Source: Labia minor (lineage: Eukaryota > Arthropoda > Insecta > Dermaptera > Spongiphoridae). From it: a DNA stretch of 64,000 bases. Each line of letters starts with the position of its first letter. Position 1 is the first letter of the stretch. Under the pieces are notes generated by a model. The model saw only the letters and a list, made by a program, of their open reading frames with translations. It searched no databases and was not told where the DNA came from. The position numbers and the translations under genes are program-made. The stretch spans positions 8,017,488 to 8,081,487 of the forward strand of contig OY720350.1 of the NCBI GenBank assembly GCA_963082975.1, given 5' to 3'. Below are positions 25,441-62,276 of this stretch, piece after piece.

Positions 25441-26653
25441 GATAACAAAGAAATTTAGTATTTGTAATTTTTAAAAATAAGCTGGAGTGTCTCCACTCGT
25501 CTATCTCGCTTTTTGAATTAGATTAAATAACATATATAATATTTAAATAAATAAATAAATAAATATTTATTAAACCAGCGTGAGTTTGGCTCTTTGTTGA
25601 CGTGTTAGCACGTGATTTGCAGTGTTAAAAAATTAATTCCAGTACTTTCAGTGATTCAATCAAGCTGAAATTCTATATATAGCAGTATTATAAAATTTTT
25701 AATCATGTGAAAAACTATCAAGCATATATCTTTATTTTTACTGTCACTTTAGATGGAAAAAAAATGAAAACGTGGTAGGTAATGGACCTCTTCCGAATGA
25801 GCATCATTTCTCAAAAGTTGAGAGAAAACTACAAATTTTGAATAGTGTTCATGTACCAAATTTCATGATTCTAGGTCTAATCTAATTAATTATTTAATTC
25901 CGGTAATTTCAGTGATTCAATCAAGCCGAAATTCTATATATAGCAGTTTTATATAATTTTTGATTCTATGAAAAACTATAAAACTGTCACAAACGTTATA
26001 ATAAATAGTTTAAATGCTAATCGTTAAACACTCAATTCAAGTTAGGATATAAAAATTTCGAAAATAACAATGAAAATTCATCTATTAGTAAATTCAGATT
26101 TTATGAAATGAGATTTAAATGATTTATTAAATATTTGAATTTATATTTAATTTAAATTGGGATACAATATAATCTGTATTATATAATATAATAAATACAA
26201 TATAATATAAATTTAATATAAAATATAATAAAAGATTGTAATATTTATAATAAAATATAATAAAAGATTGTAATATTTATAATAACATATTATTTTTTTA
26301 AATTTTCTCCTTTCTTTTATAACAAAGAAAGGAATTACAAAAATTTAGTCCGGGCACTGGCCGGGCACTAAGATGATTTTGAAACTTCTCAGTGATGATT
26401 TTAAAATGGAAGGAATTCTATTTCACTTGCTAACCATGATTTTGTACTCACCGAATATAACAACAACCCTTAACAATGTTTTAAAATTTAGTATTTGATA
26501 TTTTTAAAAAAAAATTATTCTAAATTAATTCCAATTGTATTACAATCGGTCATTAATGATAATTTAGCCCTAAAAAGTGAAATATTTATTTTTAATATAA
26601 TATATACTTTTCAATTTCACTGCTTTAACTAATGTTAGTGCCCTCTAGTGAGA
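25441..26653 (+). repeat. Last, diverged satellite unit at the array edge
   Basis: This unit carries private changes not seen in the others: a local duplication of about 32 bp of AAAATATAATAAAAGATTG-type sequence near 26219-26280, and TTTAGTCCGGGCAC in place of TTTAGGCCGGGCAC. It breaks off at CCCTCTAGTGAG and is joined directly to AAAAATGAAAACGTGG of the element's 3' part. Extra divergence at the edge of an array is usual for satellites. Confidence 0.9.
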
Positions 26654-26791
26654 AAAATGAAAACGTGGTAGGAAATGGACCTCTTCCGAATGAGCATCAT
26701 TTCTCAAAAGTTAAGAGAAAACTACAAATTTTGAATAATGCACGTGTACTAAATTTCATTGTTCTAACTCAAACCGTTTTTGCGTAATCTT

Positions 26792-26833
<42 letters not shown>

Positions 26834-26850
26834 GCGAGGAAGTAAAAAAT
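26654..26850 (+). mobile_element. 3' end of the HINE-like element closing the array
   Basis: From AAAACGTGGTAGG the sequence follows the 3' part of dispersed copies (compare 41161-41445): GAATAATGCACGTGTAC, CTCAAACCGTTTTTGCGTAATC, then a (CA)n microsatellite at about 26797-26832. It finishes CTGGCGAGGAAGTAAAAA, a damaged form of the terminal hairpin CTATCTCTGGCGAGATAG plus TAAAA. The segment between the microsatellite and the hairpin in full copies is missing here. Confidence 0.85.
26797..26832 (+). repeat. (CA)n microsatellite inside the element 3' end
   Basis: Uninterrupted CA dinucleotides. Comparable but shorter CA tracts occupy the same place in the copies near 36695, 41300, 43450, 57840 and 62185, so this is an inherited part of the element that has lengthened here. 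Confidence 0.95.
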
Positions 26851-27530: not shown

Positions 27531-28698
27531 ATTACGAAAAAATGGTTTGAGTTAGAACAATGAAATTTGGTACACGTGCATTATTCAAAACTTTTGGGAA
27601 ATGAAGCTCATTCGGAAGAGGGTCATTATCTTCAACGTTTTCTAAATTAACCTTAAAAATAAAGATATATGTTTGATAGTTTTTTACATGATTATAAATT
27701 TTATAAAACTGCTAGATATAGAGTTTCAGCTTGATTGAATCACTGAAAGTACCGGAATTAATTTTTAACACTGCAAATCACGCGCCAACACGTGGCGTGG
27801 TGTCATCAACAAAAACACGCGCTGGTTTAATAAATATTATTTATTAATTTAAATATTATATATGTAATTTAATCCAATTCATATAGCGATATAGTCGTGT
27901 GGAGACACTCCAGCTTATTTTTTAAAAATTACAAATATGAAATTTCTTTGTGATCTACAGAATCTACTTGTGAGCAGGATACTGACCTATCTCACTAGAG
28001 GGCACTAACATTATTTAATGAAGTGAAATTGAAAAGTATATTTTATCTTAAAAAATAAATATTTCACTTAGTATGGCTAAAATATCATCAAAGACCGATT
28101 ATAATACAATTGGAATTAATTTAGAATAATTTTTTTTTTAAAATATCAAATACTCAATTTTCAAACATTGTTAAGGGCTGTTGTTATATTTGTTGAGTAC
28201 AAAATCATGGTTAGCAAGTGAAATAGAATTCCTTCCATTTTAAAATCATCACTGAGAAGATTCAAAATCATCTTAGTGCCCGGCCAGTGCCCGGCCTGTG
28301 AATTTTTGCAATTCCTTTCTTTGTAATAAAAGAAAGGAGAAAATTTGAAAAAATAATATGTTATAAATATTATATTTTATATTATATATTATATATTATA
28401 TATTAAAAATATTAAATTAAATTTATATTTATAAAATACTTATTCTATTATATTTATAATACAGATTATATTATTTCCAAATTTAAATAAATATAAATAC
28501 AAATATTTAATAAATCATTTAAATCTCATTTCATAAAATCTAAATTTACTAATAAATGAATTTTCATTATTATTTATCGAATCCTAACTTGAATGTTTAA
28601 CGATTAGCATTTAAACTATTTATTATAAAGTTTTTCACAACTTCACTTGGAGTCTGTCTGTCTCTGTCTCAGACTCTCTGTCTGTTCGCTCTTTTGAC
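27531..28698 (-). mobile_element. HINE-like element copy, inverted, 3'-truncated
   Basis: Read on the minus strand it starts (28698 side) with a GCGAACAGACAGAGAG-type lead also present at 34911, then the AT-rich block, CCTTTCTTT palindrome, GGCCGGGCAC pair, GAGATAGGTCAG block, GGAGTGTCTCCAC motif, and the body to CTCAAACCATTTTTTCGTAAT near 27531. The microsatellite and terminal hairpin are absent. It keeps the ancestral longer form at the GTTGATGACACC-like site that array units have lost. It lies head-on to the array, about 700 bp from the array's 3' end. Confidence 0.9.
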
Positions 28699-28979
28699 AA
28701 ATTGAAATCGATTTTCCATCATCTTTAAATTTATATTATTTACTTATTTATTTTTTAATATTTTATAACAAGTTACCTAATTTACTTATAATTTCAATAT
28801 TTAGGGAAGCAGTCTTTAGTCTATAGTTGATTTCGCAAAAAAATCAAAATTTTACTTCTATTCTTTAATGCAGTTTTAATTTTTAATTAATATAATTAAT
28901 TATTATTAATTTCATTTCCTAATAACAATTTTGGGACTTTAGCAAACTATTTTAATAAACCTATGGTTTCGTTTTAGTT
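28699..28979. other. AT-rich spacer, nothing recognised
   Basis: Low-complexity AT-rich sequence with no open frame or recognisable repeat between two inverted element copies. Confidence 0.5.
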
Positions 28980-32136: not shown

Positions 32137-34100
32137 TTTTTACTATCTCGTCAGCGATAGTATTGCAATCACGAAAATTTACGATGTCAAGATTTTGATG
32201 TTTTTATACGTTTTAAAGGTTCCTGAATCATTTTCACTAAGGTTGAGAAAAATGTCTATGTGTGTGTATGTAGACAAGATTACGCAACAACAGTTTTAGC
32301 TAGAACAATGATATTTGGTACACGTGAATTAGTCAAAATTTGTAGTTTTCTCTCAACTTTTGAGAATTGATGCTCATTCGGAAGAGGTCCATTACCTACC
32401 ACGTTTTCATTTTTTTCCCTCTAAAGTGACCGTAAAAATAAAGATATATGCTTGATAGTTTTTCACATGATTAAAAATTTTATAATACTGTTATATATAG
32501 AATTTCAGCTTGATTGAATCACTGAAAGTACTGGAGTTAATTTTTTAACACTGCAAATCATGTGCTAACACGTGGCATGGTGCCATCAACAAAGAGCCAA
32601 ACTCACGCTGGTTTAATAAATATTTATTTATTTATTTATTTAAATATTATATATGTTATTTGATCTAATTTTAAAAAGCGAGATACACGAGTGGAGACAC
32701 TCCAGCTTATTTTTAAAAATTACAAATACTAAATTTCTTTGTTATCTACAGAATTTACTTGTGAGGAGGATACTGACCTATCTCACTAGAGGGCACTAAC
32801 ATTAGTTAATGCAGTGAAATTGAAAAGTATATATTATATTAAAAATAAATATTTCACTTTTTAGGGCTAAATTATCATTAATGACCGATAATAATACAAT
32901 TGGAATTAATTTAGAATAATTTTTTTTTAAAAATATCAAATACTAAATTTTCAAACATTGTTAAGGGTTGTTGTTATATTCGGTGAGTACAAAATCATGG
33001 TTAGCAAGTGAAATAGAATTCCTTCCATTTTAAAATTATCACTGAGAAGATTCAAAATCATCTTAGTGCCCGGCCAGTGCCCGGCCTGTGAATTTTTGTA
33101 ATACCTTTCTTTGTTATAAAAGAAAGGAGAAAATTTAAAAAAATAATATGTTATTATAAATATTACAATCTTTTATTATATTTTATATTATATTAAATTT
33201 AAATTTATATTATATTATATTTATATTATATAATACAGATTATATTATATCCCAATTTAAATTAAATATAAATTCAAATATTTAATAAATCATTTAAATC
33301 TCATTTCATAAAATCTGAATTTACTAATAGATGAATTTTCATTGTTATTTTCGAAATTTTTATATCCTAACTTGAATTGAGTGTTTAACGATTAGCATTT
33401 AAACTATTTATTATAACGTTTGTGACAGTTTTATAGTTTTTCATAGAATCAAAAATTATATAAAACTGCTATATATAGAATTTCGGCTTGATTGAATCAC
33501 TGAAATTACCGGAATTAAATAATTAATTAGATTAGAGCTAGAATCATGAAATTTGGTACATGGACATTATTCAAAATTTGTACTTTTGAGAAATGATGCT
33601 CATTCGGAAGAGGTCGTTTACCTACCACGTTTTCATTTTTTTTCCCTCTAAAGTGACCGTAAAAATAAAGATATATGCTTGATAGTTTTTCACATGATTA
33701 AAAATTTTATAATACTGCTATATATAGAATTTCAGCTTGATTGAATCACTGAAAGTACTGGAATTAATTTTTTAACACTGCAAATCACGTGCTAACACAT
33801 GGCATGTAGCCATCAACAAAGAGCCAAACTCACGCTGGTTTTATAAATATTTATTTATTTATTTATTTAAATATTATATATGTTATTTGATCTAATTCAA
33901 AAAGCGAGATAGACGAGTGGAGACACTCCAGCTTATTTTTAAAAATTAGAATCAAAAATTATATAAAACTGCTATATATAGAATTTCAAAATCATCTTAG
34001 TGCCCGGCCATTGCCCGGCCTATGAATTTTTGTAATTCCTTTCTTTGTTATAAAAGAAAGGAGAAAATCTAAAAAAATAATATGTTATTATAAATATTAC
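32137..34100 (-). mobile_element. Dimeric HINE-like element, inverted, with intact-looking 3' end
   Basis: Minus-strand reading begins near 34100 with the CCTTTCTTT palindrome and the GGCCGGGCAATGGCCGGGC pair, then a deleted first body, then the unit-to-unit junction CTAGCTCTAATCTAATT followed by AATTCCGGTAATTTCAG seen in the satellite. A second body follows, then a short CA-containing tract, TTTTTCTCAACCTTAGTG, and the 3' hairpin (CTATCGCTGACGAGATAG on the minus strand, about 32143-32160) with TAAAAAC after it. Neither body has the 13-bp deletion that marks array units. It is thus a two-unit version of the array with the true 3' end. Confidence 0.93.
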
Positions 34101-34904
34101 TCTTCATGTGATATAAATAAATAAATTCAATATTTATTTCAATACTACTATATTAATGAAATATAATATATATATAACGATTTCCCCTTTAATAAAATAT
34201 ATTTAATTTCATAAATAGTTAAATAGACTTGAACTTTAATTCATAAAAAATGATTTTAACTTCAATCTACATATATATTATTTTATTTCTATATTTGAAA
34301 CAAAAAGTAAAAACGATAAAATATTTTTTTTTCTTTTATATATTTAGATTTGTTTGATTGTCAATGTTTCAATTGCTGTTGTTTGTTTAGAAAGGGGCTG
34401 GATACAAATACCAATAGTAAATTGCATTGAAAATCTGTTGAACCAATAAAAAAAAGGGAGAGGTCGTCTTTAAGATATCGAGTTCTTTGACTTTATCGTC
34501 TGAAATCATTGAGGTTTGTTGTTTCTTCGTTCTTTTTTCTCTTTGGTTGACAGATGAAGATGAGTTGATGGCAAACGTAAAGCTGAGAGAAACGATTTCG
34601 CTTAAAACAACAACAAAAGAACAACTGGTTGCCAACAATCGCAAGATAACAGAAATATATATAGGTTAGAGAAAGATGAGGAAGAGAGAAAGAAAAATGG
34701 ATCAAATATATTTTTCAGAATATAATATATCTATTATGATAATTAAATTAAATTAAATTATTTATAATATCATTCTACTTAAGTTTTTATTTTTTCCAAA
34801 TAAATTTCATTTAGTTGTTAGAAAATGACAAATGTAATTTTAAAAGGATTAAAAATCTGTTTTAATTTTTTACTTTTTTAATTTAATTTTTAATTTAAAT
34901 TTGC
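34101..34904. other. Single-copy-looking spacer of the inverted element pair
   Basis: Mostly AT-rich. The stretch 34390-34700 is less AT-rich and contains overlapping open frames on both strands (34487-34669 +, 34387-34644 -, 34493-34705 -), none resembling a known family. A splice-acceptor-like TTGACAG precedes ATGAAGATGAGTTGATGGC near 34550. An unrecognised exon cannot be excluded. Confidence 0.4.
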
Positions 34905-36857
34905 CAAAAAAGCGAACAGACAGAGAGACAGAGACAGAGACAGACAGACGCCAAGTGAAGTTGAGAAAAACTTTATAATAAATTGTTTAAATGCTAATCG
35001 TTAAACATTCAATTCAAGTTAGTATATAAAAATTTCGATAAATAACAATGAAAATTCATCTATTAGTAAATTTAGATTTTATGAAATGAGATTTAAATGA
35101 TTTATTAAATATTTGAATTTATATTTAATTTAAATTGGGATATAATATAATCTGTATTATATAATATAAATATAATATAATATAAATATAAATATAACAT
35201 AATATAATTATTATATAATATATAATATAAATATAAAATATATTATTTATAATAACATAATATTATTTTTAAATTTTCTCCTTCCTTTTAAAACAAAGAA
35301 AGGATTTACAAAAATTAATAAGCCGGGCAATGGCCGGGCACTAAGATGATTTTGTAGATAACAAAGAAATTTAGTATTTGTAATTTTTAAAAATAAGCTG
35401 GAGTGTCTCCACTCGTCTATCTCGCTTTTTGAATTAGATCAAATAACATATATAATATTTAAATAAATAAATAAATAAATATTTATTAAACCAGCGTGAG
35501 TTTGGCTCTTTGTTGATGGCACCATGCCACGTGTTAGCACGTGATTTGCAGTGTTAAAAAATTAATTCCAGTACTTTCAATGATTCAATCAAGCTGAAAT
35601 TCTATATATAACAGTATTTTAAAATTTTTAATCATGTGAAAAACTATCAAGCATATATCTTTATTTTTAGTAAATTCAGATTTTATGAAATTTGATTTAA
35701 ATGATTTATTAAATATTTGAATTTATATTTAATTTAAATTGGGATATAATATAATCTGTATTATATAATATAAATATAATATAATATAATATAAATTTAA
35801 TATAATATAAAATAAAAGATTGTAATATTTATAATAACATATTATTTTTTTAAATTTTCTCCTTTCTTTTATAACAAAGAAAGGAATTACAAAAATTCAC
35901 AGGCCGGGCAATGGCCGGGCACTAAGATGATTTTGAATCTTCTCAGTGATAATTTTAAAATGGAAGGAATTCTATTTCACTTGCTAACCATGATTTTGTA
36001 CCCACCGAATATAACAACAACCCTTAACAATGTTTGAAAATTTAGTATTTGATATTTTTAAAAAAAAATTATTCTAAATTAATTCCAATTGTATTATAAT
36101 CGGTCATTGATGGTATTTTAGCCATAAAAAGCGAAATATTTATTTTTTAATATAATAATAATTTTCAATTTCACTGCAATAAATAATGTTAGTGCCCTCT
36201 AGTGAGGTAGGTCAGTATCCTGCTCACAAGTAGATTCTGTAGATAAGAAAGAAATTTTGTATTTGAAATTTTTAAAAATAAAAGCTGTAGTGTCTCCACT
36301 CGACTATATCGCTATTTAAATTGGATTAACTAACATATATAATATTTAAATTAAAAAATAATAATTTTTAAACAAGGGTGTTTTTGGCTCTTTGTTTAAG
36401 GCACCACGCCACGTGTTGGCGCGTGATTTGCAGTGTTAAAAAATTGTGGTTCAATAAAGATGAAACACTATATATAGCAGTTTTATACAATTTTTAATCA
36501 TGTGAAAACTATCAAACATATATCTTTATTTTTACGTTCCGTTTAGAGGAAAAAAAAATCAAAGCGTGGTAGGTAATGAACCTCTTCCGGTTGAGCTACA
36601 TTTCTCAAAAATTGTTAGACAACTACGAATTTGGAATAATGCCCGTATACCAAATTTAATGATTCTAACTCAAACCGTTTTTGCATAATCTTGTCTACAT
36701 GCATACATACATACACACATACACATATACACACACAGAGAGACATTTTTCTCAACCTTAGTGAAAATGATTCAGGAACCTTCAAAACATAAAAACATTA
36801 AAATCTCGACATCGAAAATTTTCGTGATCGCAATACTATCTCTGGCGAGATAGTAAA
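34905..36857 (+). mobile_element. Dimeric HINE-like element, forward, with 3' hairpin
   Basis: Opens with GCGAACAGACAGAGAGACAG, the same lead as the inverted copy at 27531-28698. Two bodies follow; the first lacks part of the block between GGCCGGGCAC and CTGTAGATAAC, and the second is joined at TTTATTTTTAGTAAATTCAG. The 3' side has CTCAAACCGTTTTTGCATAATC, a CATA/CACA microsatellite, TTTTTCTCAACCTTAGTG, and the hairpin CTATCTCTGGCGAGATAG at 36836-36853 plus TAAAAAA. The first body keeps the 13 bases (TGGCACCATGCCA) that array units have lost. Confidence 0.93.
36836..36853 (+). other. 3' terminal hairpin of the HINE-like element
   Basis: CTATCTCTGGCGAGATAG folds as a 7-bp stem with loop TGGC and is followed by TAAAA. 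The same hairpin lies at 41428-41445 and 55817-55834, with variants near 32143-32160 (minus), 43563-43580 and 62254-62271. Confidence 0.9.
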
Positions 36858-40261: not shown

Positions 40262-41449
40262 AAAATGTTTAATTTAATTTAATTTAAATTTAAATTGGGA
40301 GATAATATAATATAATATTATATAATATAAATATAATATAAATATAATATAAGAATGTTATATTTATATTTTATATTTAAATTTATAATAATATAAGAAT
40401 GTAATATTTATAATAACATATTATTTTTTTAAATTTTCTCCTTTCTTTTATAACAAAGAAAGGAATTACAAAAATTCACAGGCCGGGCACTGGCCGGGCA
40501 CTAAGATGATTTTGAATCTTCTCAGTGATGATTTTAAAATGGAAGGAATTCTATTTCACTTGCTAACCATGATTTTGTACTCACCGAATATAACAACAAC
40601 CCTTAACAATGTTTGAAAATTTAGTATTTGATATTTTAAAAAAAAAATTATTCTAAATTAATTCCAATTGTATTATAATCGGTCATTAATGATAATTTAG
40701 CCCTAAAAAGTGAAATATTTATTTTTAATATAATATATACTTTTCAATTTGACTGCTTTAACTAATGTTAGTGCCCTCTAGTGAGATAGGTCAGTATCCT
40801 CCTCACAAGTAAATTCTGTAGATAACAAAGAAATTTAGTATTTGTAATTTTTAAAAAATAGACTGGAGTGTCTCCACTCGACTATCTCGCTATTTGAATT
40901 GGATTAAATAACATATATAATATTTAAATTAATAAATAATATTTTTTAAACAAGGGTGTGTTTGGCTCTTTGTTGATGGCACCAGGCCACGCCACGTGTT
41001 GGCGCGTGATTTGCAGTGGTAAAAAATTAATTCCGGTACTTTTAGTGATTCAATCAAGATAAAATTCTATATATAGCAGTTTTATACAATTTTTAATCAT
41101 GTAAAAAATTATCAAACATATATCTATATTTTTACGGTCAGTTTAGAGGAAAAAAAAATGAAAACGTGGTAGGTAATGGTCCTCTTCCGAATGAGCTTCA
41201 TTTCTTAAATGTTGATAGAAAACTACGAATTTTGAATAATGCATGTTTACCAAATTTCATTATTCTAGCTCAAATCCTTTTTGCGTAATTTTGTCTACAC
41301 ACAAACACACACACACAGACAGACAGACATTTTTCTCAACCTTACAATTAGTGAAAATGATTCAGGACCCTTCAAAACGTATAAAAACATCAAAATCTCG
41401 ATATCTAAAATGTTCTTGATCGCAATACTATCTCTGGCGAGATAGTAAA
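40262..41449 (+). mobile_element. Monomeric HINE-like element with 3' hairpin
   Basis: The clearest single-unit copy: AT-rich block, CCTTTCTTT palindrome, GGCCGGGCACTGGCCGGGCAC, GAGATAGGTCAG block, GGAGTGTCTCCACTCG with CTATCTCGC, GTTGATGGCACCAGGCCACG, AAAACGTGGTAGG, CTCAAATCCTTTTTGCG, a CA/CAGA microsatellite, TTTTTCTCAACC, and the hairpin at 41428-41445 followed by TAAAAATC. No second subrepeat is present. The 5' edge in AT-rich sequence is approximate. Confidence 0.92.
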
Positions 41450-42239
41450 AATCAATGGTAGATAGATTTTAAATTTGCTTTTATTTAATTTACAAACACA
41501 AATAAAATATAGTATACTTTATAGTTTGTTTTTATCACCTCATCTTGAGTATCTTATAATAATAATGTTTCACTTTATCATTGTTATCTGTTTTCTTATT
41601 ATAAATTTAACAAAAAAGAAAAATCAATAAATAAATAATTGCATAATAAAAACAAGGGATGATGGATAAATAAAAAAACAGCAACATCTTTGGTTTAATG
41701 ATAAGAGACTTTCTTGAAAATTGTTTGATGATATTAATCAATCATACGGACAGTTTCTTGATGAGTTACGTTAAAAGACGTCGATGATTGTTTGAAAGAT
41801 TTTACTCTCTGGAGACAATGTCTAAAAAAAAGTCAAGCTCAAAGATACCGTCTTAATAATAAAAGAGCAAGAAAACTCTCCACTTTATTGATATATTATG
41901 TATAAGTATATACATTATTTATTTATTTATTAACATATTCGAATTGATAAATCAATTTAATTATATATTGTTATTCTATTTCTTTTAATAATAGAAAGAT
42001 GCAATTGAATAATAATTTTATAAATTATAATTTAATTATTTGTTAGAATGATGTATTTAATTAATGATACAAACATTTTATAATACCTTTGAATTACTTC
42101 ATATACTCTTATTCTAAAAATTTAATCATTTAATTTTTACCGATCGATGATAGGAAGGGAAGGTATTGTTTTCACCCCAAATTTCACATGTAGATATTTT
42201 TACATATCTCCACGAATTATATATTTTGATAACAGAAAA
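41450..42239. other. AT-rich spacer
   Basis: No repeat or gene recognised; contains long AT-rich runs. Confidence 0.5.
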
Positions 42240-42356
42240 GTGTATTTTTAGCATGATGTCTGTCCGTCTGTCCATTGTGTGTCCGTATAGACGTGTACAG
42301 CTTGAACGGCTCAACGGATTTTGATAAAATTTGGAATATTATGAAACGTTATAATG
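42240..42356 (+). repeat. GTCTGTCC-rich dispersed-repeat lead
   Basis: GTCTGTCCGTCTGTCC is followed by GGCTCAACGGATTTTGATAAA. Similar CTGTC-rich leads ahead of a GGATTTTGATAAAATTTGG-type block are common at the ends of invertebrate interspersed repeats. It abuts the element copy at 42357 and may be its true 5' part or a separate repeat. Confidence 0.45.
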
Positions 42357-43585
42357 AATCAAAAACATTATAATAAATAGTTTAATTGCTAATCGTTAAA
42401 CATTCAAGTTTCATCTATTAATAAATTTAGATTTTATGGAATGAGATTTAAAAGATTTATTAAATATTTGAATTTATATTTAATTTGAATTTAAATTTAA
42501 ATTGGGAAATAATTTAATCTGTATTATATATTATATATTATATAATATAAATATAAAATATAATATTTATAATAACATATTATTTTTTTAAATTTTCTCC
42601 TTTCTTTTATAACAAAGAAAGGAATTACAAAAATTCACAGGCCGGGCAATGGCCGGGCACTAAGATGATTTTGAATCTTCTCAGTGATAATTTTAAAATG
42701 GAAGGAATTCTATTTCACTTGATAACCATGATTTTCTACTCACCAAATATAGCAACAACCCTTAACAATGTTTGAAAATTTGGTATTTGATATTTTAAAA
42801 AAAAAATTATTCTAAATTAATTCCAATTGTATTATAATCGGTCATTGATGATATTTTAGCCCTAAAAAGTGAAATATTTATTTTTTAATAGAAAATATAC
42901 TTTTCAATTTCACTGCATTAAATAATGTTAGTGCCCCCTAGTGAGATAGGTCAGTATCCTTCTCACAAGTAAATTCTGTAGATAAGGAAAGAAATTTCGT
43001 ATTTGTAATTTTTAAAAAATATGCTGGAGTGTCTCCACTCGACTATCTCGCTATTTGAATTAGATTAAATAACATATATAATATTTAAATTAAAAAATAA
43101 TATTTTTTAAACAAGGGTGTGTTTGGCTCTTTGTTGATGGCACCATGCCACGTGTTGGCGGGTAATTTGCAGGTTTAAATAATTAAATCCGGTACTTTCA
43201 GTGATTCAATAAAGCTGAAATTCTATATATAGCAGTTTTATACAATTTTTAATCATGTGAAAACTATCAAACATATATCTATATTTTTACGGTCAGTTTA
43301 GAGGAAAAAAAAATGAAAACGTGGTAGGTAATGGTCCTCTTCCGAATGAGCTTCATTTCTTAAAAGTTGATAGAAAACTACGAATTTTGAATAATGCATG
43401 TGTACCAAATTTCATTATTCTAGCTCAAATCCTTTTTGCGTAATTTTGTCTACACACACACACGCATACATTTTTCTCAATCTTAGTGAAATTGACTCAG
43501 GGGCCTTTAAAACGTATAAAAACATAAAATTCTCGACATCGAAAATTTTCGTGTTAGCAATACTATATCTGTCGAGTTAGTAAAA
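42357..43585 (+). mobile_element. Monomeric HINE-like element, diverged 3' hairpin
   Basis: Same order of blocks as 40262-41449, beginning CATTATAATAAATAGTTTAA. The terminal hairpin is altered to CTATATCTGTCGAGTTAG (about 43563-43580) and followed by TAAAAG. The microsatellite is short (CACACACACACG). It carries the full GATGGCACCATGCCACGTG site. Confidence 0.9.
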
Positions 43586-44574: not shown

Positions 44575-45059
44575 ATGGCGAATTGTTCGCATTCGTTACC
44601 CGAGAATATTAAAGAAGAATCATCCCTTGTGGAGTTTATCATCTACGGAGTGTTTATGAACACCATCGGTGTCTTTGGTGTTGTTGTCAATATAATTTCG
44701 ATGATTATTCTCTCGCGACCTCAAATGAAATCCAGTATTAATTACCTGTTGATTGGCCTCGCCAAATGTGATACTGTGCTCATTGTGACCTCAATATTAT
44801 TGTTCAGTTTCCCTAGTATTTATAAGTATACGGATTATATGGAATCTTATTTTCAGATTTTCCCGTTTCTCGTTATGTACCTTTTCCCAATTGCAATGAT
44901 TGCACAGACCATCTCTGTTTATTTGACATTAACAGTGACGCTGGAACGCTTCATCGCAGTTTGCCTCCCTCTTCGAGCAAGATCACTCTGCACCTATGGA
45001 CGAGCAAGAATTTATGTAATCGTTATCGTCATCTTTTCTATACTGTACAATCTAGTGAG
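44575..45059 (+). CDS. FMRFamide-receptor-like class A GPCR, exon 1
   Basis: Seven-transmembrane neuropeptide receptor of the plasma membrane; the closest resemblance by eye is insect FMRFamide receptors, and the ligand is inferred only. The exon encodes residues 1-161 plus two bases of codon 162. An N-glycosylation sequon is at N3. TM1 is about 21-46 with GVVVN (N39 as N1.50), TM2 about 53-79 with LAKCD (D66 as D2.50), and TM3 about 98-127 ending LERFIAVC, where ERF replaces the usual D/ERY (R125 as R3.50). TM4 is about 144-160, ending YNLVR. The start at 44575 is chosen because an in-frame stop lies upstream and the context ACGATGG is favourable (A at -3, G at +4). The donor is GTGAG|GTATAA, phase 2. 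A frame that stays open into the intron to 45132 is intron read-through, not coding. Confidence 0.88.
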
Positions 45060-45239
45060 GTATAATATTTTATTTAATTTCAATGCATTTCTATTCGTAA
45101 TAAAATTAATCTTACTTTTAGTAACAATTTAATTTATTTGAAACATTTCTATATTTTGTTGGGGACTCAAATTTTTCACATAGATTAAATACAACCCCTC
45201 AAAATAATATATTTATATATATATATATATATATTTAAA

Positions 45240-48529: not shown

Positions 48530-49764
48530 ATCATGTAAAAATCTCTGGAAAAAAATCCCTAAATGCAAAAATTCCTAAGTAAAATATCTCTAAAAAAATA
48601 AATCCCTAAATAAAAAATTTCCCTAATTTTTTTTACTTATTTAATAATGAATAGCCGAAGAGACTTGAATAAGTTATACATCATTCTTGGTGTCATCACA
48701 TCTGTTCCATCTGGTTTTTTAGCGTCCCATATTTCATGGTTTGCCTTCATTATGGTTAGAAGCTCATCATGCGAGTCGCGGAATCGTTTCCTTGGTGGAT
48801 CAGGCTTCTTACCACGAACATCACGACAGATTTCTAAAGAGATAAGGTTATGCTCAATATGGATTTGCTTAATCAGGTTCCATACTGATGTCTTGTAAGC
48901 TCCCAAGCGTGAACGAAGAGCAGTGTTGTAACCTTCCAATGCATTGTTTGTTCGAGGCAAACCCATCAAAGTGGCATCGTAGATGTTCCAATGATCCAAT
49001 GTCGAATTCGGGGTCATAAAAGCCAGCCAAATATTGTTCACCTAACCAAGTGCGCTCGAAGTAAGAAAAAAGATCACGGAATTTTGCCCTGTTGGTCGTC
49101 CAGCTAATGCTTGGTAGGCTACAATGACTTTTGATGGTGGTACCAAAACCAAAGCTGCAAGAGTTCGTAAATGAGTGGAGTTGTCAGGATTATCTATATC
49201 ATTATAGAGCTTCAAAACTTCTCTGGCATTGATTTGATGTTTCTCTAAATGCATTGAGCAAAATGAAAAAGACAACCTCTGATGATTGTAAATTTCACAA
49301 ATTGCGTTATATATTCCCTGGTGAAATATACGGTGCAAATGGTGTATTTTGTATTTGGAATCATTAAGCTATTAAAACGTATGCTAATAAACGATATTTG
49401 AGTAAATTCCCTTTATTTTACATACGAATTTGACACCCCTATTTTTTTGGAAAAATCACGTGTCTGGGCCATATGTATGTATTTTTTGACCTATTTTTCC
49501 CTACTTTCGGTCCAGGCCCGATTACCTCCTTGGGAGGTCGTGTCTCAGGCAACTGGGTGTCATGCTCACCCTGTGATTTACTTTTCTGAGTCACAATTAA
49601 AATTAATACAAAAATGAAAAAATTTGTTTTTAGTGATTTTTTCTTTTAGGGATTTTTTCAGTCAGCGATATTTTTATTTAGGGATTTTCGCTTTTGGGGA
49701 TTTTCGGTTTTAGGGATTTTTGACTTTTATGGATATTTTCCTTTAGAGATTTTTACCCGTTTCC
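48530..49764 (-). mobile_element. Degenerate MULE with iterated AAATCCCTA termini
   Basis: Perfect 12-bp flanking copies of ATTTTGAAAGAA (48518-48529 and 49765-49776) fit a MULE target duplication of about 9-12 bp. The left arm (to about 48620) contains AAATCCCTAAA-type motifs about four times. The right arm (about 49640-49764) contains the inverse TAGGGATTTT motif several times, and both outer parts have TAAAAATCTCT in matching orientation. The element lies inside the 47765-50933 TIR element. The transposase piece it carries is listed separately. Confidence 0.85.
48637..49338 (-). pseudogene. MULE (Mutator-like) transposase C-terminal remnant
   Basis: Would catalyse cut-and-paste of a Mutator-like element. 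On the minus strand the 5' piece (49042-49338) reads FHQGIYNAICEIYNHQ, then a CSMHLEKHQ-type Cys/His segment and LAALVLVPPSKVIVAYQAL. The 3' piece (48637-49041) reads WNIYDATLMGLPRTNNALEG, the RTNN-x-EG signature of MULE transposases, and then IWNLIKQIH-like sequence. A stop and frame changes separate the two pieces around 49020-49080. The N-terminal half and the first catalytic part are absent, so no activity is expected. Family assignment rests on recognising these motifs by eye. Confidence 0.75.
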
Positions 49765-55366: not shown

Positions 55367-55838
55367 AAGCATCCACTCGACTATCTAGCAAATTTGAATT
55401 GGATTAATTATCATATATAATATTTAAATTAAATTTAATTAATTATAAATTAAAATTAATAAATAATATTTATTAAATCAGCGCACGTTTGGCTCTTTGT
55501 TGATGGGACTACGTCACGTGTTGTCACGTGAGATTTGAAGTATTAAAAAATTAATTCTGGTACTTTAAGCAATTCAATCAAGCTGAAATTCTATATATAG
55601 CAGTTTTATACAATTTTTAATAATGTGAAAAATTATCAAACATAAATCTTTATTTTTACGGTCACTTTAGAGGAAAAAAATAAAAACGTTGTAGGTAATG
55701 ACCCTCTTCTGGTTAAGCTACATTTCTCAAAAGTTGATAGAAAACTACGAATTTTGAATAATGCCCATGTACCAAATTTCATGATTCTAGCTCAAACCGT
55801 TTTTGCATAATCTTGTCTATCTCTGGCGAGATAGTAAA
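55367..55838 (+). mobile_element. Short HINE-like element with 3' hairpin
   Basis: Starts CATCCACTCGACTATCTAGC, then the body with GTTGATGGGACTACGTCACG, AAAACGTTGTAGG and CTCAAACCGTTTTTGC, and passes straight from CTTGTCTA into the hairpin (55817-55834) and TAAAAAA. The microsatellite and the TTTTTCTCAACC block are deleted. The AT-rich and GGCCGGGCAC half is absent, showing the short form of the family. Confidence 0.9.
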
Positions 55839-57220: not shown

Positions 57221-57860
57221 ACAAAGAAAAAAATAAGCTGGAGTGTCTCCACTCGAATATCTCGCAAATTTGAATTGGATTAAATATCATATATTATATT
57301 TAAATTAAATTTAATTAATTATAAATTATAAATTAAAATTAATAAATAATATTTATTAAACCAGCGCATGTTTGGTTCTTTGTTGATGGCACCACGTCAC
57401 GTGCTGGCAGGTGATTTGCAGTGTTAAAAAATTAATTCCGGTACTTTCAGCGATTATATATTATATTTAAATTAAATTTAATTAATTATAAATTAAAATT
57501 AATAAATAATATTTATTAAACCAGCGCGTGTTAGGCTCTTTGTTGGCACGTGATTTGCAGTGTTAAAAAATCAATTCCGGTACTTTCAGCGATTCAATCA
57601 AGCGGAAATTCTATATATAGCAGTTTTATACAATTTTTAATCATGTGAAAAACTTTCAAACATATATCTTTATTTTTACGGTCACTTTAGAGGAAAAAAA
57701 TGGGTAATGGGTAATGACCCTCCTTCCGGTTAAGCTACATTTTTCAAAAGTTAATAGAAAACTATGAATTTTGAATAATGCCCGTATACCAAATTTCATT
57801 ATTCTAGCTCAAACCATTTTTGCGTAATCTTGTTTACATACACACACACACACACACAAA
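57221..57860 (+). mobile_element. HINE-like element with its own internal duplication
   Basis: Starts AATAAGCTGGAGTGTCTCC with CTCGAATATCTCGC. A segment of about 165 bp (57291-57453) is repeated immediately (from about 57458), both containing AATAATATTTATTAAACCAGCG and ending TACTTTCAGCGATT; the second copy has a shortened GTTGGCACGTG site. It then follows the usual body to a CA microsatellite, where it stops without the hairpin. Confidence 0.9.
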
Positions 57861-58348
57861 CGATAAAAAAAATTAATCAGTAATCAATCAAAAATATATG
57901 ATAAACATTCATTATGATAAATTTAGAGTTATAAACCAACCATATAATATAATTATAAGTAATTTAATTAAAATCTTGATGATATACCTAATAACGATGG
58001 AATTATGAAATAACACATTGACACAAGTGGAATTAAAGTCACATCCAGTTTGCTATTATAAGGACACTCTGTTATATATATTGGCTTAATTCGGTAATTT
58101 AATTTGCGAATAGGACATGTGGGGAATTTATGAAATCCTTTATACTATATGAAAAATGAAATATAAATGAAATATATAGGATATAGGATGATTTATGATA
58201 TTTATGTTTATAATTTTCATAATTTTATAGCTAAAATTTATCCATTTTTATATAAGAAACTACAAACGAACCTATTCCTATATATATTTGTCAATATATT
58301 TAATATATATTACTTGCTTCTATTAATTTATGTTCCTTTAATGGTAAT
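57861..58348. other. AT-rich spacer
   Basis: No repeat recognised. The 70-codon frame at 58167-58379 is rich in Tyr, Ile and Phe from AT-rich sequence and is not called. Confidence 0.5.
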
Positions 58349-60908: not shown

Positions 60909-61775
60909 TTGATTTATACATTAATTAATTTTTATGAAAGATGAATTTCAATAAGCTATTATTTTATTATTTATAAAAAGGTCTTTTTATATCTATTTTA
61001 TATTGTCTTTTGAAAATTGAATAAAAATCGTTTAGAAAATATTGACAAAAACAAAAAACTAAATAAAAGCAAATATTTGTTTTAGTTTATTTATTAAGAG
61101 TTACAGTATCTATAGCTATTGATAATGAAAAAGACACCATTAATAATACTTTATACAAGAAAGTCTTGTCTTTCATCATCATTATTTACAAAATACCTCT
61201 TCTACTTTTTGGATTGGACTATATTTTTTCATTAAAGTTAACAAATGAAAAAGAAAATATCTCAACAGTTAAAGTTTTTAATTTTCATTAAATATGATCT
61301 GAATATTTATGTTTTATCAATTTATTTTTAGAATTTAGTTGACTTTTGTATTTTTAATTTCTATTTTAGTTTTTGTTTATTTTTAAGTTGACCTGGATTA
61401 AAAAAAAAACTAAATAAAAATAAAATTAAATGACAAGAAGGAATTACGGCAATGAAATAAACGATTAAATAAAAAGAAATTAAAGGGCGATATAAAATTG
61501 ACACATTTTCACCGAACAATAGATATACAATATTTGAAAAAATTAAATATATACAATATTAATTACCAATGTAAAGGCTTAGCAATTAAAATTAATGAAA
61601 ATTTAATAATTATCAGAACAGGGACGCTAGTAATTTAGAACGAGAGGTAATTTTAAATAAAAAAAAAATTTGATTCCATGTATCTTTGCTTCACCCTTAA
61701 ATAATTAATTTTAATAATTATCTACATGGTGAAATTTTTGATTTAATTTATCTTTATTATTTCAAAATCAAACTT
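60909..61775. other. AT-rich spacer
   Basis: No gene or repeat recognised. Confidence 0.5.
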
Positions 61776-62276
61776 TAAAAATCTGGAGTGTCTCCACTTG
61801 ACTATCTAGCAAATTTGAATTGGATTAAATAACATATATTATATTTAAATTAAATTTAATTAATTAGATAATTGAAAGGAATAAATATATCATTTGAAAA
61901 TTAATAAATCATTTAACTAGCCATTCAACTATATATTACGGCGATTCAATCAAGCTGAAATTCTATATATAGCAGTTTTATACAATTTTTAATCATGTGA
62001 AAAACTATCCAACATATATCTTTATTTTTACGGTCACTTTAGAGGAAAAAAATCAAAACGATGTAGGTAATGACCCTCTTCCGGTTGAGCTACATTTCTC
62101 AAAAGTTGATAGAAAACTACGAATTTTGAAAAAAGCCCGTATACCAAATTTCATTAGCTCAAACCGTTTTTGAGTAATCTTTTCTCTACACACACACATT
62201 TTTCTCAAGCTTATTCAAAACGTATGGCATCGGAAATTTTCATGATCGCAATATTATCTCTGGCGAGATAGTAAAA
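61776..62276 (+). mobile_element. Short HINE-like element with 3' hairpin
   Basis: Starts ATCTGGAGTGTCTCCACTTG with CTATCTAGC. A stretch around the GTTGATGGCACC site is missing, and the body resumes at CGATTCAATCAAGC. It ends with CTCAAACCGTTTTTGAG, a short CA tract, TTTTTCTCAAGC, and the hairpin TTATCTCTGGCGAGATAG (about 62254-62271) plus TAAAAAGG. Confidence 0.9.

Follow-up and report, generated by a model that had tools for sequence, protein, structure and literature searches.

A two-body HINE-like element as an apparent relic of the passage from transposon to satellite DNA in Labia minor

Introduction

How does a dispersed transposon turn into a satellite, and can a copy that stands between the two states be recognized? 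The question is raised by a stretch of 64,000 nucleotides from Labia minor (Dermaptera; GenBank assembly GCA_963082975.1, contig OY720350.1, positions 8,017,488 to 8,081,487 of the forward strand), called the window here and used for all coordinates below. It holds a small repeat family without seen coding capacity, which occurs as single copies, as double copies and as a long tandem array. A sequence-only reading of this DNA had proposed that the double copies are intermediates between the transposon and the satellite. We asked which of the double copies, if any, can bear that role, and in which order the three forms arose.

Results

A HINE-like family in single, short, double and tandem forms

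The single copies M40 (40262-41447, minus strand, with its 5′ end at 41447) and M42 (42345-43582, minus strand, with its 5′ end at 43582) each have a single 5′ palindrome and a single set of 3′ signals. M27 (27531-28700, plus strand) is a long form without a 5′ end. Among the short copies, F62 (61774-62273, minus strand) lacks the 3′ module and F57 (57229-57861, minus strand) lacks the 5′ palindrome, both ending about the 3′ palindrome; F55 (55372-55836, minus strand) ends within this palindrome. F57 also has a partial tandem duplication of its core with a junction of its own near 57455 and copies that are 93.5% alike, another internal duplication in the family. The two double copies, D1 (32141-34100, plus strand) and D2 (from 36855 to about 34900-34962, minus strand), lie in opposite orientation and contain two bodies each, as had been claimed.

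Judging from the sequence layout, these copies look like a HINE-like lineage (nonautonomous Helentron, DINE-1-like), in which a T-run, a palindromic 5′ subTIR, an inverted 3′ subTIR and a 3′ palindrome follow one another. T-runs stand before the 5′ ends of D1, D2, M40, M42, F55, F62 and the array. Among the long copies, the 3′ ends differ. After the T-run, copies with an intact 5′ end carry the palindrome ACTATCTCGCCAGAGATAGT, which shows 0 mismatches over 26 bases in M40 and D2 and folds into an 8-bp hairpin in M40. The 3′ subTIR, GCGAGATAGT, is the inverse of the 5′ end and lies approximately 460-560 bases downstream of the 5′ palindrome. The palindrome TGGAGACACTCCA that follows it is intact in eight of the nine matches outside the array and altered in the first body of D2; a further 22 matches to the 3′ subTIR and palindrome lie within the array (at most 6 mismatches over 28 bases), and F55 gave no match. 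The exact 10-mer of the inverted repeat occurs six times in the window (0.01 expected), four times at 5′ ends and twice at 3′ ends. The family thus has the subterminal inverted repeats at both ends and the palindrome after the 3′ subTIR that characterize HINEs, although the repeat is identical over only 10 bp here, and the available text of PMC4067079 quotes subTIRs of 12-15 bp for mite HINEs and 13 bp for DINE-1. A canonical Helitron, with 5′ TC, 3′ CTRR and A/T insertion, was rejected; read by eye, the 5′ end is ACTATC after T-runs, and T-rich sequence follows the 3′ palindrome.

The long form extends beyond the 3′ palindrome by an extra module of approximately 450 bp, which contains a doubled GCCCGGCC and a second hairpin, CCTTTCTTTGTTATAAAAGAAAGG, and is followed by an AT-rich stretch and a tail. 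This module may have been acquired by read-through capture. An exact search for the GCC repeat in viral contigs gave 0 stretches. A 3′ end rich in GTCTGTCTGTCTC is common to M27 (28639-28700, plus strand) and D2 (34900-34962, minus strand) and absent from D1, M40 and M42. Directly after M42 (42200-42345, minus strand) stand AAAATCCGTTGAGCCGTTC and then GGACAGACGGACAGAC, which we take to be motifs of other arthropod mobile elements.

The window has a GC content of 25.3%, close to the 25.8 and 23.8% given for two aphid parasitoid wasps in PMC7257214, and contains four open reading frames of at least 100 amino acids, only one of which has Pfam matches. This frame (185 amino acids; 44575-45132, plus strand) matched GPCR families and presumably resembles an insect FMRFamide receptor. 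Another, of 134 amino acids (48637-49041, minus strand), had no Pfam match; it may be akin to a MULE-type transposase remnant.

The array is a homogenized satellite under a single 5′ end

The array occupies positions 1-26844 on the minus strand. It opens with a truncated first body (25877-26844, minus strand), continues through 21 complete units of 1211-1212 bp and is cut at base 1 within a part unit, with 22 junctions in all. The junctions were counted by a Hamming scan, with which a 38-mer scan agrees, and the unit count is a lower bound because the array reaches the window edge at base 1. The coexistence of monomers, dimers and a 22-mer, as previously described, therefore holds insofar as all three forms lie in the window (the monomers near 40262 and 42357), but the figure of 22 is only a minimum.

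The 21 complete units share one orientation and differ from one another at a mean of 11.1 positions over 1212 columns (range 2-23); within the window, they form the long, homogenized head-to-tail array expected of a satellite. Neighboring units are more similar (Mantel rho 0.35; 0 of 5000 permutations), as unequal exchange predicts, but the mean difference drops again at the largest separations, which counts against it.

As read from the sequence, the array has a single degenerate 5′ end (TACTTCCTCGCCAG; 26831-26844, minus strand), in which the second arm of the palindrome is lost, and a scan that allowed up to 7 mismatches over 26 bases detected no 5′ palindrome in the array. A perfect (AC)18 microsatellite (26796-26831) lies at this end, where the palindrome breaks. 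A concatemer of whole elements is ruled out, as the junctions carry no 5′ palindrome. The layout also departs from the central tandem repeats of HINEs, which lie between a left and a right module, in that the inner bodies carry their own 3′ subTIR and palindrome.

D1 and D2 are two-body elements with different joints

D1 begins with a 5′ palindromic subTIR (32141-32166; 2 mismatches over 26 bases; folded) and continues with the first 3′ subTIR and palindrome (32678-32705), the first GCCCGGCC repeat (33066) and second hairpin (33104; together 33066-33127), and a body-to-body junction as in the array (33521-33558). In the second body, D1b, follow another 3′ subTIR and palindrome (33904-33931) and another GCCCGGCC repeat (34000) and second hairpin (34038; together 34000-34061), and the element ends near 34100. 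Most of the module of D1b is replaced by a piece of approximately 38 bp (33951-33988) that matches the HINE core; this filler appears to duplicate the fragment within the tail of D1 itself, in a manner that resembles template switching. D2, on the minus strand, has its 3′ subTIR and palindrome sites at 36312 and 35425, its GCCCGGCC repeats at 35922 and 35341 and its second hairpins at 35884 and 35303. The earlier description of two bodies before one 3′ hairpin was consequently mistaken, since each of these 3′ features is present twice in either element. In both D1 and D2, the second body is incomplete, with neither a 5′ terminus nor a full 3′ module, so "dimer" is a loose term.

The joint of D2, TTTACTA/AAAATAAAG (35660-35675, minus strand), is unlike that of D1 and the array, and its second body begins directly after TTTACTA. 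Parts of its first core are nearest the monomers (e.g., in windows 450-510, 92-95% identity to M40 vs 82-88% to D1), and much of the length of its first module does not discriminate between the types. D1-type sequence makes up the end of its first tail and its second core (windows 0-270, 97-100%); around the second GCC repeat no type matches well, and the last tail is 95-100% D1-like. A sister relationship of its two bodies, D2a and D2b, was rejected (p-AU 2.87e-06), and a recent duplication of one body is thereby ruled out. D2 is a mosaic two-body element and, as it stands, no second copy of the D1 dimer. Because both sides of its joint are of the D1 type, the joint could have been derived from a D1-type dimer via a deletion of approximately 330 bp across the old joint; an independent exchange is as possible.

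D1 and the array share one junction

The 38-base junction string had 23 matches in the window at up to 3 mismatches, 22 of them in the array and one in D1 at 33521-33558, against 0.00 expected from 100 dinucleotide shuffles; it was not found in D2. The junction connects a partial HINE core fragment at the tail end with a core starting at AGCTAGAATCATG. From the first palindrome of D1 through the junction (32706-33558), 7 substitutions over 840 aligned bases and 2 gaps separate D1 from the array consensus, and in the tail plus junction 1 of 335 bases differs; the 21 array units themselves differ from this consensus at 2-12 positions. On these sequence comparisons, it is not credible that two independent joins yielded the junction of D1 and that of the array. 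The claim that the dimer has the same junction as the satellite units accordingly stands for D1 and fails for D2.

D1 lies outside the present array

Two deletions set the array apart from the other long copies. Every one of the 22 inner array bodies carries a 13-bp core deletion, and all 22 array modules that cover the site carry a 2-bp deletion; neither occurs in D1, D2, M40, M42 or M27. As the array bodies carry both deletions and D1 carries neither, D1 stands outside the present array. A comparison of the 5′ flank of D1 (995 bases) with that of the array (692 bases) gave no hit. The first core of D1 is 95-96% identical to the array units, and its middle is approximately 99% identical.

The tree of bodies to which the sequence-only reading had appealed was computed for the cores from 34 rows, 30 of them different, leaving out the first body of the array, the core of which is mostly deleted. 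D1a, D1b, D2b and 22 array bodies form one clade (100/100), within which the array forms its own group (94/87), D1b joins the array with modest support (84/75) and D1a joins D2b (92/74). Forcing D1a with the array was weakly rejected (p-AU 0.048, for a group picked after the tree was viewed); D1a and D1b as sisters (p-AU 0.134) and a group of D1a, D1b and D2b (p 0.218) were not rejected. The module tree places M40 between D1a and the array (81/75) and the short 3′ piece of D1b outside the D1a-array clade. In its alignment, D1b and D2b cover 17% and 50% of the columns, respectively, and no branch of the tree has the monomer outgroup as one of its sides. This tree excludes the cut unit U22 and the copies without a module (F29, F55, F57 and F62), and the bootstraps of both trees are unsettled.

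At the start of the core, GAACAATG with ACACGTG is common to D1a and the first body of the array, and GAATCATG with ACATG is common to D1b and the array units U1 and U8. These markers are few and not private, as M27 has those of first bodies and F55 those of inner bodies. At the few sites concerned, the sequence favors a founder in which both kinds of body were already in place; the positions of M40 and D1b in the module tree speak against it.

Discussion

Overall, the proposal that the dimers are intermediates between transposon and satellite is supported for D1, which shares the array junction, has a 5′ terminus of its own, shows no 5′-flank similarity to the array and retains the ancestral state at both deletion sites. 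It does not hold as stated for D2, with its other junction, mosaic ancestry and nonsister bodies, but D2 could still be a rearranged D1-type dimer. D1 looks like a relic of the transposon-to-satellite step.

On balance, we consider it probable that one founder two-body element came to lie at two sites, at one as D1 and at the other as the founder of the array, which was later expanded by unequal exchange. An illegitimate join in one lineage would have produced a two-body element, the first body of which held the sole 5′ terminus, and the second of which lacked its first approximately 140 bases. The presence of this element at two sites is suggested by the shared junction, the unrelated 5′ flanks and the separate 5′ ends. 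Unequal exchange between direct repeats at the second site would then have yielded at least 22 inner bodies and homogenized them. The 5′ palindrome of the array would since have decayed, and the array is therefore probably no longer mobile. This account draws on a single window with one array and one dimer that has the array junction. Neither an insertion mark nor an empty site was seen in it, and the 3′ end of the array lies beyond its edge. More tentatively, two-body Helentrons may transpose as units, passing the 3′ signals of the first body and stopping at the last, such that a founder dimer would be copied to several places, any of which could develop into a satellite; D1 and the array would then represent alternative outcomes for one such founder.

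D1 lies 5.3 kb from the array's 5′ end and could thus be the product of a local inverted duplication or conversion. The array, or an earlier version of it, would then have come first, and D1 would be an offshoot that gained its middle from the array, in line with its inverse orientation and with the closer match of its middle than of its first core to the array. However, the donor would need to be an older, unhomogenized array, given that D1 lacks the two deletions of all covering array bodies and that the array cores group by themselves, and we regard this course as distinctly unlikely. Unlikely as well, in our estimation, is an aberrant rolling-circle replication in which the 3′ signals were passed on a circle without a 5′ terminus and a concatemer was inserted in one step, with D1 as a short product of that event. 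The Helentron-like architecture suits such an origin, a route to tandem Helitrons according to the accessible portion of PMC12628747, as do the single junction throughout, which fits one circle, and the filler in D1b, which resembles replicative template switching. Yet the plant arrays described in that portion combine numerous 5′ ends with only one 3′ end, in contrast to the one degenerate 5′ end and the 3′ signals in each inner body here, and a one-step concatemer does not predict mosaic units or a greater likeness of near units, although later exchange could add these. A double insertion, in which a second element landed beside the first through target preference, as proposed for other transposons, seems highly improbable to us. 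HINEs prefer T-rich targets, as stated in the available text of PMC4067079, and the tails here are AT-rich; nevertheless, the second bodies of D1 and D2 lack a 5′ terminus, and the route as it appears in the published excerpts needs target-site duplications, which Helitron-type elements do not make.

Several parts of this picture have precedents, compared here on the sections of each paper at hand. HINE/DINE-1 elements (Thomas et al. 2014, PMC4067079) share the palindromic 5′ subTIR, inverted 3′ subTIR, 3′ palindrome, an apparent T-rich target, lack of seen coding capacity and, in some copies, tandem repeats; the present family differs in its extra module of approximately 450 bp and AT-rich tail and in a 1.2-kb tandem unit that includes the 3′ signals. 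In Drosophila DINE-TR1 (Dias et al. 2015, via PMC9957191), internal HINE repeats have likewise grown into satellite-like arrays, but its units are central repeats of approximately 150 bp between conserved blocks, whereas most of the element is the unit here. Cg_HINE of the Pacific oyster (PMC7492417) has short tandem arrays, some related to classical satellites and dispersed by the element; its repeats lie between flanking modules, unlike the right-end signals that recur in each inner body here. Dimers of transposable elements have been proposed as the source of arrays (McGurk and Barbash, via PMC12628747), although they are ascribed mainly to insertion-site preference, in contrast to the internal junction without a second 5′ end found here. 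Tandem plant Helitrons (Xiong et al. 2016, via PMC12628747) also form arrays of truncated rolling-circle elements, many of them with many 5′ ends and one 3′ end, the reverse of one 5′ end and many 3′ signals. From these sections, HINE-derived satellites (PMC9957191, PMC7492417) and dimers as seeds (PMC12628747) are already in print. The present case stands apart in that the repeated unit comprises most of the element, including the 3′ signals, under a single 5′ end, a variant on known themes; this layout did not appear among the open-licence papers that literature searches listed.

How a dispersed transposon becomes a satellite is usually reconstructed from the two end states. In this window, monomers, a two-body copy that retains ancestral states and an expanded array sharing its joint lie together, so that the order of events becomes testable by counting and dating junctions across a genome. 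Moreover, the presence of 3′ signals in every unit behind a single 5′ end raises the question of whether Helentron terminators are leaky.
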